From NCBI GenBank assembly GCA_030658975.1, contig JAUSBL010000065.1:1-64000 (forward strand): a stretch of DNA of 64,000 bases, given 5' to 3'. Positions 39,746-63,745 of the stretch are shown here, in pieces. Position numbers and translations under genes: made by a program. How positions within the stretch are numbered: position 1 is the stretch's first letter; every line of letters starts with the position of its first letter. Below the pieces are notes generated by a model that was given only the letters and a program-made list of their open reading frames with translations, did not search any database and was not told the DNA's origin. This DNA is from Candidatus Latescibacterota bacterium (GTDB lineage: Bacteria > Krumholzibacteriota > Krumholzibacteriia > LZORAL124-64-63).

Positions 39746-40087
39746 CTACAGCCCGGGGACGATCCTCTTGAGGTCTTCGACGTAGCGCGCGAACATCTCG
39801 CGCCCTGCCGGCGTCAGCCGGACCACGGTCCGCGGCCGCTTCCCCACGAACTCCTTGACGATCTCCACGGCCCCCCCCTGTTCGAGGGTGGCGAGGTGGA
39901 CCGAGAGCGTGCCGTCGGTCAGGCCGAGCAGGGAGCGCAGTTCGGTGAACGCGGTCGCGCCGGACCGCATCAGGTGGGACACCACGAGCAGGCGCACCCG
40001 GCCGTGCATCAGCGGGGCCAGGGGCGTTCCGGGCACGTGGGACGTGCCGTCACCGTCGGGAGACGGGGACGGCGGTTCGCGGCGCAC
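39746..40087 (-). CDS. Winged-helix transcriptional regulator
   Basis: VVSHLMRSGATAFTELRSLLGLTDGTLSVHLATLEQGGAVEIVKEFVGKRPRTVVRLTPAGREMF. Confidence 0.85.
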   Translation of the reverse strand: MRREPPSPSPDGDGTSHVPGTPLAPLMHGRVRLLVVSHLMRSGATAFTELRSLLGLTDGTLSVHLATLEQGGAVEIVKEFVGKRPRTVVRLTPAGREMFARYVEDLKRIVPGL

Positions 40088-40333
40088 GTGGGGCCTCCTT
40101 GCCTCCGTTGTCCGCCTCGCGAGACCCGACGGTCCCGGCGTCAGGAGGACCGCGCCGGCATCCCTGCCTGCGCGGTCCCCCGAGAGGGTGCCGGTCGGGG
40201 ATCCTTCCCCGCCCTGCGAACAGGGTCCGCGGCCTTCACCGGCGCTCCGTCCGGACCCGGCGATCTCTCACGCCATCGACCTGGCGCCCACCGGTTCCCA
40301 TCCTTGGGTCCCCGCGGCGCCTTTGCTTTAATA

Positions 40334-40359
40334 ATTCAAGTAGTTTAGTTATTCAAGTA
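40334..40359 (-). promoter_or_regulatory. Candidate minus-strand promoter overlapping a direct repeat
   Basis: ATTCAAGTA at 40334-40342 and 40351-40359; on minus this gives TTGAAT-N17-TATTAA. Confidence 0.4.
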
Positions 40360-40381
40360 AAATCATCGCTCCGGCACCAAA

Positions 40382-40411
40382 TTGTTCCCCGAATTTCACA
40401 ACGCTTATATT
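40382..40411 (+). promoter_or_regulatory. Candidate plus-strand promoter upstream of the structured element
   Basis: TTGTTC (40382-40387), 18-nt spacer, TATATT (40406-40411) in an AT-rich island. Confidence 0.4.
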
Positions 40412-40464
40412 ATATTGATATATAACACTTTATGTGATTGTCGGTCTTGTTGTTCACCTTGAAG

Positions 40465-40593
40465 CCGCACATCCTGTGGTGGCAGGGGTGTCCTGGAGGC
40501 CTTGAAGCCAGGATGGCGGAAAGGCCGGAAGGCCAAGCGCTCCGGGCACAGGAGGTGCCCGGAGCGCGTCCCCTGCCACCACAGGATGTGCGG
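40465..40593 (+). repeat. Multi-hairpin intergenic element, copy 1 (candidate structured RNA or palindromic repeat)
   Basis: Perfect 24-bp outer inverted repeat CCGCACATCCTGTGGTGGCAGGGG / CCCCTGCCACCACAGGATGTGCGG enclosing TCCTGG..CCAGGA, GGCC-GGAA-GGCC and a perfect 13-bp stem GCGCTCCGGGCAC-AGGAG-GTGCCCGGAGCGC (40537-40567). Confidence 0.8.
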
Positions 40594-40704
40594 TAAAATT
40601 TGAGAGCCGACGCGGCGCCATATATCTTGAGCCCGACGCGGACCCCCGCTGTCCATACATGGCCCGCACGAGGGCGCCAACCCATCACACGCCTGGAGGC
40701 CGCG

Positions 40705-41901
40705 ATGAAGACCAGCAAGTACATCGAGTTGGAGGACCGGTACGGGGCGCACAACTACCATCCGCTGGATCTCGTGATCGCGCGGGCCGAAGACATCTGG
40801 GTGGAGGACGTGGAGGGCAAGCGCTACCTGGATTGCCTGGCCGCCTACAGCGCGGTGAACCAGGGCCACTGCCACCCGCGCCTGCTGAAGGTCTTCCGCC
40901 GCCAGGCCGCGCGCGTGACGCTCACGAGCCGCGCCTTCCGCAACGACCAGCTCCCCCACTTCACCCGCGAACTGACCGAACTGACGGGCTTCACGCGCGC
41001 GCTGCCGATGAACACGGGCGCCGAGGCCGTCGAGACGGCGGTCAAGGCCGCCCGCAAGTGGGGCTACAGGGTCAAGGGCATCCCCGCCGACCAGGCCGAG
41101 ATCGTCGTCTGCGCCGACAACTTCCACGGCCGCACCACGACCATCGTCGGCTTCAGCACCGAGCCCCAGTATCGCGACGGGTTCGGGCCCTTCACGCCCG
41201 GCTTCAAGGTCGTTCCCTTCGGCGACGCGGCCGCGCTGGCCGCGGCGATCACGCCCAACACCTGCGCGTTCCTGGTGGAGCCCATCCAGGGCGAGGCCGG
41301 CATCGTGATGCCGCCGCAGGGCTTCCTGAAGAAGGCCGAGGAGATCTGCCGCGCGAACAACGTGCTGCTGATCGTCGACGAGATCCAGAGCGGTCTGGGC
41401 CGCACCGGCCGGATGTTCGCCCACGAGTGGGAGGGCGTGAAGCCCGACGGGATGATCGTCGGCAAGGCGCTCAGCGGCGGTTTCTACCCTGTCAGCGCCT
41501 TCCTGGCCAACGACGAGGTCATGGGCGTCTTCCATCCCGGCGACCACGGCTCGACCTTCGGCGGCAACCCGCTGGGCTGCGCCGTCGCGCGCGAGGCGCT
41601 CAGGGTCATCGTCGAGGAGAAGCTCGTCGAGAACTCGCTCCGGCAGGGCGAGCATTTCATGGCCGAACTGAAGAAGATCGACGCCAAGAGCATCAAGACC
41701 GTGCGCGGCACGGGCCTCTGGATCGGCGTCGTGCTCGACCGGCCCGCGCGGCCCTACTGCGAGGCGCTGATGGCCGAGGGACTGCTCTGCAAGGAGACGC
41801 ACGAGAAGGTCATCCGCATCGCGCCGCCCCTGACGATCACCCGCAAGGACGTCAACTGGGCCGTCAAGCGCATCGCGAAGGTCTTCAGGAAGCTGGGCTG
41901 A
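40705..41901 (+). CDS. rocD: Ornithine--oxo-acid transaminase
   Basis: [76 protein letters not shown]. Confidence 0.92.
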
Positions 41902-52071: not shown

Positions 52072-55000
52072 ATGAGCATGCGTTCCTGGCCCCTGGCCGT
52101 CCTGATCCTGCTCGCGGCGGGGCTGTCCGTCGCCGCCGACGACTTCGACGCGCAGGACATGCGCCTGCTGCGCAACCCCGACCTCCTCGGCGGCACGATC
52201 GTGTTCGTCCAGGGCGGCGACCTGTGGACGGTGCCGGCCGCGGGCGGCGAGGCCCGCCGTCTCACCTCCCACGTCGGCTTCGAGTCGCAGCCCAAGTTCT
52301 CCCCTGACGGGAAGTGGATCGCGTTCTCGGGCGACTACGACGGCAACCGGGACGTCTACGTGATCCCCGCCGCCGGCGGCGAGCCCCGGCGTCTCACCTG
52401 GCACCCGCTGGGCGACCGGGTCATCGACTGGCAGCCCGACGGCAAGGCGGTGCGCTTCCAGAGTTCGCGCACCAGCTTCACGATGCGCGAGCAGCAGCTC
52501 TGGACGGTGCCGCTCGCAGGCGGCCTCCCGCAGATGCTGCCCCTGCCCGAGGGCGGCCTGTCGAGCTGGTCGCCGGACGGCCGCCGCCTCGCCTACAACC
52601 GCATCACCTCGGAGGGCCGCACCTGGAAGCGCTACCAGGGCGGCATGGCCCAGGACATCTGGATCCACGATTTCGACAAGGGCACGACGGCCCGCATCAC
52701 CGACTGGCCCGGCGCCGAGAACTACCCGATGTGGCATGGGGACACGATCTACTTCACGAGCGACCGCACCGGGCGCCTCCAGATCTGGGCCTACGACACC
52801 GTGGGCGGCGCCTTCCGGCAGGTGACCGACCATTCCGAGTACGACGTCAAGGAGCCGAGCCTCGGCGACGACGCCATCGTCTACGAGAACGGCGGCTGGC
52901 TGCACGTTCTGGACCTCGCGACCGGCAAGTCGCGCCGGGTGACCGTGGCCGTGCACGACGACTTCTTCCGCACGCGACCGGCCTTCGTGGACGCGTCCGG
53001 ACGGATCACCGGCTTCGGTCTCGGACCCGACGCGCAGCGCGCGGTCTTCGCGGCCCGCGGCGAGATCTTCACCGTCCCGGCGGAAAAGGGCGAGGTGCGC
53101 AACCTCACCGGCACGCCGGCGGTGAACGAGGTCCTGCCCGCCTGGTCGCCGGACGGCAAGTGGATCGCCTACTTCGGCGACGCCTCCGGCGAGTACGAAC
53201 TGACCCTGCGCCGCGGCGACGGCAGCGGCGAGGAACGGCGCCTGACCTCGGGCAGCGGCACCTACTACGTCGGCCTGCGCTGGTCGCCGGACAGCAGCAA
53301 GATCCTGACCTACGACGCGGCCATGATGCTGCGCTGGGTCGACGCCGGCAGCGGCGAGCAGCACGACATCGGCCGCAGCCCCACCGAGCGCAGCTTCGAC
53401 GCCGCCTGGAGTCCGGACAGCCGCTGGGTGGCCTTCGCCGAGGCCGAGGACAACGAGTTCTCCTCGATCTTCCTCTTCGACACGAAGGACGGGTCGCGCA
53501 GCCGCGTGACCACGTCGATGACCGACGACACGTCCCCGACCTTCTCCCCCGACGGGAAGTACCTGTACTTCGCCTCGGAGCGCAGTTTCAAGCCCAGCTT
53601 CGGCCCCTACGACCAGGTCCCCCACTGGAGCGCGACGACCGGCCTGTACCTGGCGACCCTGCAGGCCGGCGAGCCGCACCCCTTCCCGCCCGAGAGCGAC
53701 GAGGTCGCGGTCGAGGGCGAAGGGGACGACCAGGACAAGGAAAAGGACAAGGGCAAGGCCGCAGACAAGGACGACGCCGATGACGGCAAGAAGGACGACG
53801 ACGAGAAAAAGGTCGAGCCCACGGCCATCGACCGCGACGGCCTCGGCAACCGCATCGTCGCCCTGGACGTGCCGCCCGGCAGCTACGGCAACCTGGCGGC
53901 CGCCGAGGGCAAGCTGTTCTATCTGAAGCGCGATCCGCAGGCCGACAACGGCGAACTCATGGTCTTCGACCTGGAGAAGCGGGAAGCCGAAACCGTGCTC
54001 GCCAAGGCCGACGGTTTCGAGCTGGACGCCAAGGGCGCGAAGCTCCTCTACCGCGAGGGCAAGACCTACGGCATCATCGCCGCGGACGCCGACCAGAAAC
54101 CGGCCGAGAAGCCGCTGCGCACCGCGGACATGAAGGCCCGCAGCGACCCCCGCGCCGAGTGGCGGCAGATGTTCCACGACGCCTGGCGTCTCGAGAGCGA
54201 CTTCTTCTACGACCCCGGCATGCACGGCGTCGACTGGGACCGCATGCACGAGCGCTACGGCCAGCTGGTCCCCTACGTGACCGACCGCCGCGACCTGGAC
54301 TACGTGCTGGGCGAACTCATCGGCGAGTTGGGCGCGGGCCACGCCTACGTGAACAGCAGCGGCGAGGCTCCGAAGGCCACGCCGGTGGGCGTCGGCCTGC
54401 TGGGCGCGGATATCCGGCTCGACGCCGCGTCGGGCCGCTACCAGCTGGTGAACATCCTGACCGAGCGCGACTGGAACGAGGACCAGCGCACGCCCCTGGC
54501 GGGTCCGGGCATCGACGTCCGCGAGGGCGACTACCTGCTGGCCGTCGACGGCAAGCCGCTGCAGGCCCCGACGAACCCCTACTCCCTGTTCGAGAACAAG
54601 GTCGACGTCCGCACCGTCCTGACCGTGGCCGCCAAGCCCGGGGGCGAGGAGCGCGAGGTCGTCGTCCTGCCGATCGCCTCGGAGGCCGGGTTGCGCTACG
54701 TCAGGTGGGTCGAAGGCAACCGCCGCAAGGTGGCCGAGCTGTCGGGCGGCAAGGTCGGATACATCCACCTGCCCGACACCGCGGTCGACGGCGTGCAGGC
54801 CTTCGCCCAGGCTTACTACCCGCAGCTGCGCCTGGAAGGCCTGATCATCGACGAGCGTTTCAACAGCGGCGGGTTCGTCCCCGACTTCCTGCTGAACATC
54901 CTGGGCCAGGACTTCCTCAACCTCTGGAAGCCCCGCTACGGCCGGGACTGGCGCACGCCGGGCACGGCCTTCAACGGGCCCCTGGTCATGGTCAGCAACG

Positions 55001-55347
55001 CGCACGCCGGCTCGGGCGGCGACGCCCTGCCCTACTACTTCAAGCGCTACGGCCTCGGCAAGGTCGTGGGCACCCGCACCTGGGGCGGCCTGATCGGCAT
55101 CAGCAGCCGGATCCCGCTGATGGACGGCGGCCTGGTGACCTTCCCCGAGTTCGGACTCTTCAACCTCGAGGGCGCGTGGGAGGTCGAGAACCACGGCGTC
55201 GATCCCGACATCGTGGTCGAGAACCTGCCCGAGGAGGTCAACCGCGGACGCGATCCGCAGCTCGAGCGGGCGGTGGCGGAAGTGATGGCGGCGATGAAAG
55301 AGCGGCGGGAGCTTCCGGCGGCGCCGGCGTTCCCACGCAATCGGTAG
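52072..55347 (+). CDS. Tricorn-like S41 protease (beta-propeller, PDZ and S41 domains)
   Basis: Repeated KFSPDGKWIAFSGDYDGNRDVYVIP blades; WRQMFHDAWRLESDFFYDPGMHGVDWDRMHERY; C-terminal LIIDERFNSGGF and SNAHAGSGGDALPYYFK. Confidence 0.95.
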   Translation: MSMRSWPLAVLILLAAGLSVAADDFDAQDMRLLRNPDLLGGTIVFVQGGDLWTVPAAGGEARRLTSHVGFESQPKFSPDGKWIAFSGDYDGNRDVYVIPAAGGEPRRLTWHPLGDRVIDWQPDGKAVRFQSSRTSFTMREQQLWTVPLAGGLPQMLPLPEGGLSSWSPDGRRLAYNRITSEGRTWKRYQGGMAQDIWIHDFDKGTTARITDWPGAENYPMWHGDTIYFTSDRTGRLQIWAYDTVGGAFRQVTDHSEYDVKEPSLGDDAIVYENGGWLHVLDLATGKSRRVTVAVHDDFFRTRPAFVDASGRITGFGLGPDAQRAVFAARGEIFTVPAEKGEVRNLTGTPAVNEVLPAWSPDGKWIAYFGDASGEYELTLRRGDGSGEERRLTSGSGTYYVGLRWSPDSSKILTYDAAMMLRWVDAGSGEQHDIGRSPTERSFDAAWSPDSRWVAFAEAEDNEFSSIFLFDTKDGSRSRVTTSMTDDTSPTFSPDGKYLYFASERSFKPSFGPYDQVPHWSATTGLYLATLQAGEPHPFPPESDEVAVEGEGDDQDKEKDKGKAADKDDADDGKKDDDEKKVEPTAIDRDGLGNRIVALDVPPGSYGNLAAAEGKLFYLKRDPQADNGELMVFDLEKREAETVLAKADGFELDAKGAKLLYREGKTYGIIAADADQKPAEKPLRTADMKARSDPRAEWRQMFHDAWRLESDFFYDPGMHGVDWDRMHERYGQLVPYVTDRRDLDYVLGELIGELGAGHAYVNSSGEAPKATPVGVGLLGADIRLDAASGRYQLVNILTERDWNEDQRTPLAGPGIDVREGDYLLAVDGKPLQAPTNPYSLFENKVDVRTVLTVAAKPGGEEREVVVLPIASEAGLRYVRWVEGNRRKVAELSGGKVGYIHLPDTAVDGVQAFAQAYYPQLRLEGLIIDERFNSGGFVPDFLLNILGQDFLNLWKPRYGRDWRTPGTAFNGPLVMVSNAHAGSGGDALPYYFKRYGLGKVVGTRTWGGLIGISSRIPLMDGGLVTFPEFGLFNLEGAWEVENHGVDPDIVVENLPEEVNRGRDPQLERAVAEVMAAMKERRELPAAPAFPRNR

Positions 55348-55352
55348 CGTCG

Positions 55353-55497
55353 CCCGGGATCGATCGACATCCTGCCGTCGGCGGACGCCCTCCGGTCACC
55401 TCGTGTGACCGGAGGGCTCGACGTTTCGGCACCTGCGCCCTCCTGGCGCAGGTACCTGCACGACGCCACCGTCGGCAGGATGTCGATCGACCCCGGG
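55353..55497 (-). repeat. Multi-hairpin intergenic element, copy 2
   Basis: Arms 55353-55384 and 55466-55497 pair at 29 of 32 positions with an 18-bp perfect core TCGATCGACATCCTGCCG; inside, minus strand, ACCTGCGCC-AGGAG-GGCGCAGGT and GCCCTCCGGTCAC-ACGAG-GTGACCGGAGGGC. Confidence 0.8.
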
Positions 55498-55757
55498 CGG
55501 CATCAGTCGTCCCAGGGGAAGGTGCGAAGAGTCCGGCGCTGCCGACCGGGCGGGGTGAATCGGGCCAGGGAGTGGTCAGATACCGGGCGGGGAGTCAAAG
55601 AACGGTCGGGGACTCGCGGGGCGCCCTATCAATAACCCATTAACTACCAATGAGTTGTATCGGACCCACCGGCTGGCGGTAAGGGTGGGGATGGCCGGGG
55701 ACTTGCTCTGGGGAATCCATCAGGATTCGCAGAGATGTCCCGTTCCCGGAGGCCGTC

Positions 55758-61813: not shown

Positions 61814-63745
61814 CTAGGCGCAAGGATTATTTACCATCGGCGCCGCGTCGAGCAAGACCCGGAATCCCGCCCGATTCAGGCCTTCCAGGAGCCCTCGCCG
61901 CCAATCGTCGCCGGCTCCGCAACCGCCGGCCTGCCGGAAGCAGTCGGCGCGCACGGCCAGGGCCGGTTCCGCGGCGGAACCGCTCGCGGCCAGATCGGGC
62001 TGCGACACCAGGGGCATGACCACGGCGGCGAGCCAGCCTGCAGGCAGCGGGGCGTCGAGGTTGGCGATCACGAGGCAGGCGCCGCGCGCCATGGCTGCGG
62101 CCTGATCGATGGCGGCGGCGCGACCGGCGACCGCGGCGCCGGTCAACTGCAGGGCGGGTTGGGTCGCGAGCGCGCGCTCCAGGTAGCGACGCGCCGGCGC
62201 GCTCAGGCCGGCGTCGGCCACCACGTACTCGATCGCCGTCGGCAGTTGCTCGGCGCCGAGCGCGGCGAGGCCGCGCAGGATGGCCGGCAGATCGCCTGCG
62301 GCCGGCAGCAGCACCGAAACTTCGGGCGTGGGCGGCGGCGGCGGCGCGAGCGGCCTGGCCGCGATGCGTCCGCCCGCAGGCGCCGCGCCCGACCACAGGC
62401 CGAGGCGACGGGCGTCCTGTCCCAGCAGATCCCAGGCGCGCTGGGCGTCGGCGCGGTGGCGCCCGCTGCGGCAGGTCTGCGTCGTGCGTTGGCGGAAGGA
62501 GCTGAGCGGCTCGCGCAGCAGCACGAGGTCGCCCTTGCTCAGCAGATGGCACCACAGGGACATGTCGCCGTTGGTCAGGGCCCGCCGACCGCCGAAGGAC
62601 ATCAGGGCCGGCAGGGCGTCGGCGGCGTCCGCGCGGCGGAAGAGGCAGGTCGTGGGTTCGCCGATCAGGTTGCGGCGGCCGCCCAGCATCAGGGCGGCGA
62701 GGTCCGTGCCGCGGATCAGCACATCGGTCGCGGCCAGCGGCGCATTGAAGTCGTCGGGCAGGACGCGCCCCTCTTCGTCGATCAGGCGGCGGTACGAGGC
62801 GGCCAGGGTCGCCCCGCCGCTGCCGGCGAGCGCCGCGACCAGGCGCGCCACGCAGTCCGGCTCGAGCAGGTCGTCGTCGGCCAGGCACTTCACGTAGTCG
62901 CCGCGCGCCCGCTCGTAGAGGGCCTGCCAGTTGTCGATCTCGCCCAGGACCGACGGGTTGCGCACGTAACTCACGCGCGGGTCCACGGCGGCGTGCCGGA
63001 GGCAGGCGGCCTCGATCTCCCCGCCGGGACTGTCGTCCCCGACCAGGATCTCCAGGTGCGCGTGGGTCTGGCGGCGCGCCGACTGCAGGGCGGCCTCGAA
63101 CCAGCGCGGCTCGTAGGCGGCGATCAGCACGCTGACCAGCGGCGGCGTGTCCAACGAGAGCGGCGCCGGGGCGGGCCGGCGGAACTCCATCACCAGGTGG
63201 CGTCCGAGCCGCGTCTCCACGTTGCGGAAGAACGGCCAGCGGCTCTCCCCCGTCGCGCACACCTCCGGCGCGGCGAGACCCGCCAGCCGGGCCAGGCGCT
63301 TCAGCTCGACGGCGTCGACCACGTGCTGGTGGCCCCAGTCCCGCAGGCAGACGTTCAGCATCTCGCAGGGGTTGGCGAGCCAGTCGTAGCCGTAGTCCTT
63401 CAGGCCGCAACGCTCGTGCCAGTCGGGATCGGCGTAGCAGCGGACGATCTCGGCGAGGTCGGGGGTGGCGACGCGCACCACGCCGCCCGGCCGCAGCGCG
63501 CGGCGGCACTCCCGCAGGAAGGCCAGCAACTCGCCCTGCGTCAGGTGCTCGACGAAGTGCTCGCTGTGGATCCCGTCGACGGTGCCGTCGGCGAAGGGCA
63601 GGCCGCGGCGGACATCGAGCTTCAGGTCGGCGTCGCGGTCGAGGTCGAGGTTGACGAAGCCGGGCAGCGGCTGGTCGCCGCAGCCCACGTTCACGAGCAC
63701 GGCGTCGGCGGCCGGCGCTTCGGGACGGGTCTGGCGTTCCGTCAC
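61814..63745 (-). CDS. Methyltransferase (N-terminal) fused to GT2 glycosyltransferase
   Basis: VLVNVGCGDQPLPGFVNLDLDRDADL...HFVEHLTQGELLAFLRECRRALRPGGVVRVATPD then VSVLIAAYEPRWFEAALQSARRQTHAHLEILVGDDSPGG. Confidence 0.85.
   Translation of the reverse strand: MTERQTRPEAPAADAVLVNVGCGDQPLPGFVNLDLDRDADLKLDVRRGLPFADGTVDGIHSEHFVEHLTQGELLAFLRECRRALRPGGVVRVATPDLAEIVRCYADPDWHERCGLKDYGYDWLANPCEMLNVCLRDWGHQHVVDAVELKRLARLAGLAAPEVCATGESRWPFFRNVETRLGRHLVMEFRRPAPAPLSLDTPPLVSVLIAAYEPRWFEAALQSARRQTHAHLEILVGDDSPGGEIEAACLRHAAVDPRVSYVRNPSVLGEIDNWQALYERARGDYVKCLADDDLLEPDCVARLVAALAGSGGATLAASYRRLIDEEGRVLPDDFNAPLAATDVLIRGTDLAALMLGGRRNLIGEPTTCLFRRADAADALPALMSFGGRRALTNGDMSLWCHLLSKGDLVLLREPLSSFRQRTTQTCRSGRHRADAQRAWDLLGQDARRLGLWSGAAPAGGRIAARPLAPPPPPTPEVSVLLPAAGDLPAILRGLAALGAEQLPTAIEYVVADAGLSAPARRYLERALATQPALQLTGAAVAGRAAAIDQAAAMARGACLVIANLDAPLPAGWLAAVVMPLVSQPDLAASGSAAEPALAVRADCFRQAGGCGAGDDWRRGLLEGLNRAGFRVLLDAAPMVNNPCA

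Follow-up and report, generated by a model that had tools for sequence, protein, structure and literature searches.

A MITE-like repeat with a conserved three-way-junction core in one family of Krumholzibacteriia, and how its arms may stay matched

RESULTS

Two copies of a folded element in the window

We analyzed a 64,000-nucleotide stretch of Krumholzibacteriota DNA, called the window throughout. At positions 40465 to 40593 of its forward strand lies a 129-nt segment, copy 1 of the element described here, in the gap between two divergent genes. To its left is a gene for an HTH_34 winged-helix regulator (39746-40087, - strand; PF13601), and to its right is an ornithine--oxo-acid transaminase-like gene (40705-41901, + strand; TIGR01885, 532.9 bits, above the cut-off). 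This is the divergent intergenic location given in a first-pass annotation of the window, which also held that the segment is not simply a neighbor's terminator; in agreement, no terminator-like site is present in 40200-40720.

The forward strand of copy 1 folds into one closed multibranch structure with a minimum free energy (MFE) of -105.9 kcal/mol. The check proposed in the first-pass annotation, an RNAfold-type comparison with shuffled controls, came out clearly in favor of the fold: 200 dinucleotide shuffles gave -57.5 +/- 3.9 kcal/mol (z -12.3), and none of them folded as well. The opposite strand folds nearly equally (-101.6 kcal/mol, z -12.4). The MFE structure is a three-way junction, made up of an outer stem, P1, and two arms, P2 and P3. 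P1 is the perfect 24-bp stem originally described, with its 5' arm at 40465-40488 and its 3' arm at 40570-40593. P2 (40489-40535) combines a helix, interrupted by 3x3 purine internal loops, with a GCC-AGGAU-GGC hairpin at its apex (loop 40510-40514), and P3 (40537-40567) is a 13-bp hairpin with the loop AGGAG (40550-40554).

Two of the smaller features noted in the segment fared differently. A GNRA-type GGCC-GGAA-GGCC hairpin is missing from the MFE structure, and its pairs form in 69% of cells, compared with 68% in shuffles; with a covariation signal of nil, it was rejected as a conserved feature. The AGGAG displayed in the last 13-bp hairpin loop is present in copy 1 but is no family trait. 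Across the family, the P3 loop reads A[GC]GA in most copies, and within the genus over half have CGA rather than GGA (GGA in 49 of 113 copies, the rest mostly CGA).

A second copy was found at 55351-55499 on the reverse strand, based on its fold (z -13.3) and a covariance-model match. It has 34-bp outer arms and begins 3 nt past the TAG stop codon of the gene on its left, which encodes a Tricorn-like protease (52366-55347, + strand; PF14684, PF14685, and PF03572). A further, weak model match at 62462-62574 (E 0.78) was taken as chance.

A dispersed family with a conserved core and variable arms

Searching the window's own assembly at the DNA level gave 48 matches. From 32 copies we built a covariance model, which gave 59 matches at E <= 10 in the same genome, about 55 of them clear; copy 1 scored 133 bits (E 8.9e-31). 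Three sister species carry 35 to 41 copies, and genomes from other genera of the same GTDB family carry 1 to 20. These counts are lower bounds in draft genomes, because many contigs (L264-L272) end inside the element, where the assembly breaks. Applied to 80 genomes of the phylum, the model matched 22. All of these belong to a single GTDB family of Krumholzibacteriia, represented by 38 genomes; the remaining 42 gave no match. A degenerate pattern searched against 264 billion bases of GTDB genomes returned 35 stretches, mostly from Candidatus Krumholzibacteriia, the remainder from metagenome-assembled genomes titled "bacterium."

No credible relative turned up in Rfam or among plasmids, phages, and viral contigs. 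Nothing in the window scored above the Rfam gathering score, and three loci gave chance-level matches only (E up to 5). The plasmid search gave a single partial, chance-level match in Streptomyces (E 0.1), phages gave none, and a search of viral contigs with one exact pattern came back empty. The family is apparently undescribed, based on the lack of an Rfam match and on the literature that our search turned up for this phylum, which by title and abstract is ecological or metagenomic.

The three-way-junction core covaries and is conserved across the family. Across 32 diverse copies, standard pairs make up 94.6% of the pair cells, and there are 488 double-change cells compared with 140 in shuffles, a value that none of 500 shuffles reached. 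Covariation was detected at 19 of the 21 modeled P1 pairs and 12 of the 13 P3 pairs, and also in P2, a composite helix that carries the 3x3 purine internal loops and has AGGA as its apical loop. In 166 of 167 copies, the P2 loop reads A(N)GGA with a closing C-G pair. The median P1 is 34 bp long, and the longest reaches 92 bp when its outward extension is counted. About 96 to 97% of P1 pairs are Watson-Crick, while the arms can have almost any sequence, different in each copy.

The element is a mobile repeat

The full-length element is about 237 bp long, with shared ends GTTCTGGC...GCCAGAAC that form terminal inverted repeats around the 129-nt core. At one locus (L003), three sister genomes have an empty site in which GTTTGTCATTCg runs straight into the right flank. 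The window's genome reads GTTTGTCATTC-GTTCTGGCTG...CAGCCAGAAC-GTTTGTCATTC there, with about 237 bp precisely inserted. The 11-bp target duplication, GTTTGTCATTC, is proven at this locus alone. Other empty sites were found for L029, in three sister genomes, and for L137, in one.

The site of copy 1 is likewise empty in three sister species (G001, G002, and G003), which align over both flanks and have about 12 nt in place of the segment 40384-40598 (forward strand; boundaries approximate to within a few nucleotides). No target duplication was found at this insertion site. The insertion begins with an AT-rich 5' tail (40384-40464), in which just the final ~17 nt (40448-40464) agree with the 5' tail of the family, TGCTGTTCGACTTGGAT. 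The part before them (40384-40447) is 67% AT, compared with 29% in the rest of the window, and the tails of other copies are GC-rich.

This tail bears on the proposal that a promoter, TTGTTC-N18-TATATT, could drive the segment as a small RNA. The promoter-like sequence lies at the edge of the AT-rich tail and within it, which is private to copy 1, and a consensus scan did not list it; a promoter shared among the copies is not supported. Copy 1 is a member of a dispersed mobile repeat family, inserted in one lineage, with a tail missing from other copies, and an independently promoted small RNA is unsupported.

The segment is a copy of a small, dispersed, MITE-like inverted repeat that inserts between genes. 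Three properties by which bacterial MITEs are recognized are present: dispersed gene-free copies, terminal inverted repeats, and target duplication (at L003). We found no autonomous copy and no transposase between element ends. Matches to the ends without the core are contig ends or, in one case, an internal deletion. That derivative (L263, approximately 2513-2612 in G000:C127) has kept both ends and lost the core. The element carries no gene of its own and is apparently non-autonomous, and a transposase would mobilize it in trans.

Arms change in pairs

We compared orthologous copies to see how paired positions change. In 18 ortholog comparisons, which are not fully independent as some share a sequence, 27 arm pairs were doubly changed and still Watson-Crick (20 transversions and 7 transitions), and only 5 arm changes were one-sided. 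For the transversional double changes, G-U intermediates offer no route. In addition, one locus shared by two species (L137 in G000:C100 and L172 in G002:C34) has the core inverted relative to the flanking genes.

Template switching during replication has been described as recopying one half of a stem from the other, so that hairpin stems are maintained and loops can be inverted (PMC8794818). Applied to this element, a hairpin would form in the course of replication, template switching would recopy one arm from its partner, and the core could be flipped as well. A mutation in one arm would therefore soon be found in both. Judging by the substitution pattern, we infer with moderate confidence that the arms are kept matched in this way.

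The main competing explanation is a structured non-coding RNA on the forward strand of copy 1, either a small RNA or an antisense 3'-end RNA, with pairing under selection and loops perhaps bound by protein. This would account for the very strong covariation and the nearly invariant P2 loop. It also draws on an excess of G-U over A-C on that strand, 128 to 60 clustered events (core 71:29, P1 57:31), although these events were counted on a model-fitted alignment that may inflate the excess, and a direct count in P1 gave 62:42. The excess is a hint of selection acting on a folded strand as well, with template switching perhaps not the sole force, and this strand may fold as RNA or as single-stranded DNA. 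However, a G-U route predicts transitions, and the double substitutions are mainly transversions; the copies are mobile, with a core that can be flipped, and share no promoter, the promoter-like tail being confined to copy 1. We consider a selected non-coding RNA unlikely as the main explanation.

Most copies lie beside stop codons

Based on gene calls from a simple codon-usage script rather than a trained gene finder, 132 of the 164 copies with a called 3' neighbor face its stop codon, 93 of them within 30 nt. Co-directional neighbors show an orientation bias of 57:18 (p 7e-6). Copy 1 is an exception to the stop-codon rule, placed upstream of the ornithine aminotransferase-like gene; it and 31 other copies face no stop codon on the 3' side. 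Close pairs of copies are arranged head-to-head (-,+) in 18 of 18 loci, spaced 63 to 197 nt apart (e.g., L014, L121, L135, L201, L211, and L202). At seven loci in several genera (L201, L211, L235, L222, L220, L079, and L081), a copy with unrelated arms directly follows the stop codon of a gene that we take to be infB, read by eye from its C-terminal protein sequence.

At the 3' ends of genes, the element may act as a hairpin boundary past the stop codon, protecting the mRNA 3' end or separating transcription units. Such a role, a weaker part of our interpretation, would explain both the position at stop codons and the retention at infB 3' ends in several genera. One observation is at odds with a simple hairpin at the mRNA 3' end: the strand favored by G-U is antisense to the gene with the adjacent stop codon.

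Ordinary intrinsic or bidirectional terminators would also be expected just downstream of stop codons, where most copies lie, but we think it improbable that the copies are such terminators. On either strand, only 6 of 174 copies have a U-tract, and terminators do not resemble a conserved junction core on a stem with a median of 34 bp. Copy 1, moreover, sits in a divergent region that lacks any terminator-like site.

The loops raise another alternative, in which the element is a CsrA/RsmA sponge and both of its CAGGAUG-like hairpin loops are putative CsrA sites. The near-invariant P2 loop with its C-G closure favors such a sponge, and the loops presumably resemble CsrB-type repeats. Nearly every genome of the GTDB family encodes CsrA; the protein is equally present in genomes free of the element, with no correlation between the two, and because CsrA is nearly universal that comparison is uninformative. 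The P3 loop, where over half of the copies in the genus have CGA instead of GGA, speaks against a sponge, which we regard as quite improbable.

DISCUSSION

The bcr1 repeats of the Bacillus cereus group are mobile and have been reported with a conserved RNA-like structure. The family described here is likewise a mobile structured repeat, but in another phylum. It also resembles the MITEs and small structured repeats ERIC/RU-1, Correia/NEMIS, RUP, and YPAL (PMC2229807), which are about 100 to 240 bp long, have terminal inverted repeats and no gene, lie between genes, form stable long stem-loops, and occur in tens of copies with target duplication. Unlike those repeats, it has a three-way-junction core with the P2 A(N)GGA loop and copy-specific arms, and it is further distinguished by its proximity to stop codons, its orientation bias, and its 11-bp duplication (one locus). 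To our knowledge, the family has no sequence match among these repeats.

An origin as REP/REPIN-type palindromes moved by a RAYT (Y1 transposase) is hardly credible: REP/REPIN elements (PMC3116915 and PMC3733652) are likewise extragenic palindromes, often in inverted pairs, which recalls the extragenic placement near gene 3' ends and the invariably head-to-head pairs seen here, but no Y1_Tnp (PF01797) was found in the genus (four genomes, G000-G003), and it is absent from 20 of the 22 element-bearing genomes (present in 2), and the unit is not a 20- to 40-nt palindrome but a three-way junction of 129 nt or longer (130 to 240 nt).

The closest parallel for the behavior of the arms is found in template-switch hairpins (PMC8794818), which share with this element perfect stems renewed by multi-base compensatory change, as well as loop inversion. 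Those cases are RNA genes, whereas this is a mobile repeat with stems of about 30 to 90 bp.

Taken together, the structured mobile repeat is real, its signal is strong, and it is apparently undescribed. The best overall explanation is a MITE-like mobile repeat whose arms would be kept matched by template switching, which may serve as a boundary at gene 3' ends and which would be mobilized in trans; we put the probability of this reading as a whole at roughly three in four. A bolder form of it is possible but doubtful, namely that the element is a portable gene 3'-end boundary, with a three-way-junction core recognized by a protein and free stems that template switching rewrites arm from arm, so that perfect pairing would owe more to how mutations arise than to selection.

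A functional RNA is usually proven by its compensatory substitutions. Here a mobile repeat covaries very strongly, its double changes are mostly transversions, and a core has been flipped, which makes the family well suited to testing how far template switching alone can produce covariation. With many orthologous insertions, both recent and old, it also offers material on why small mobile elements come to lie next to stop codons.
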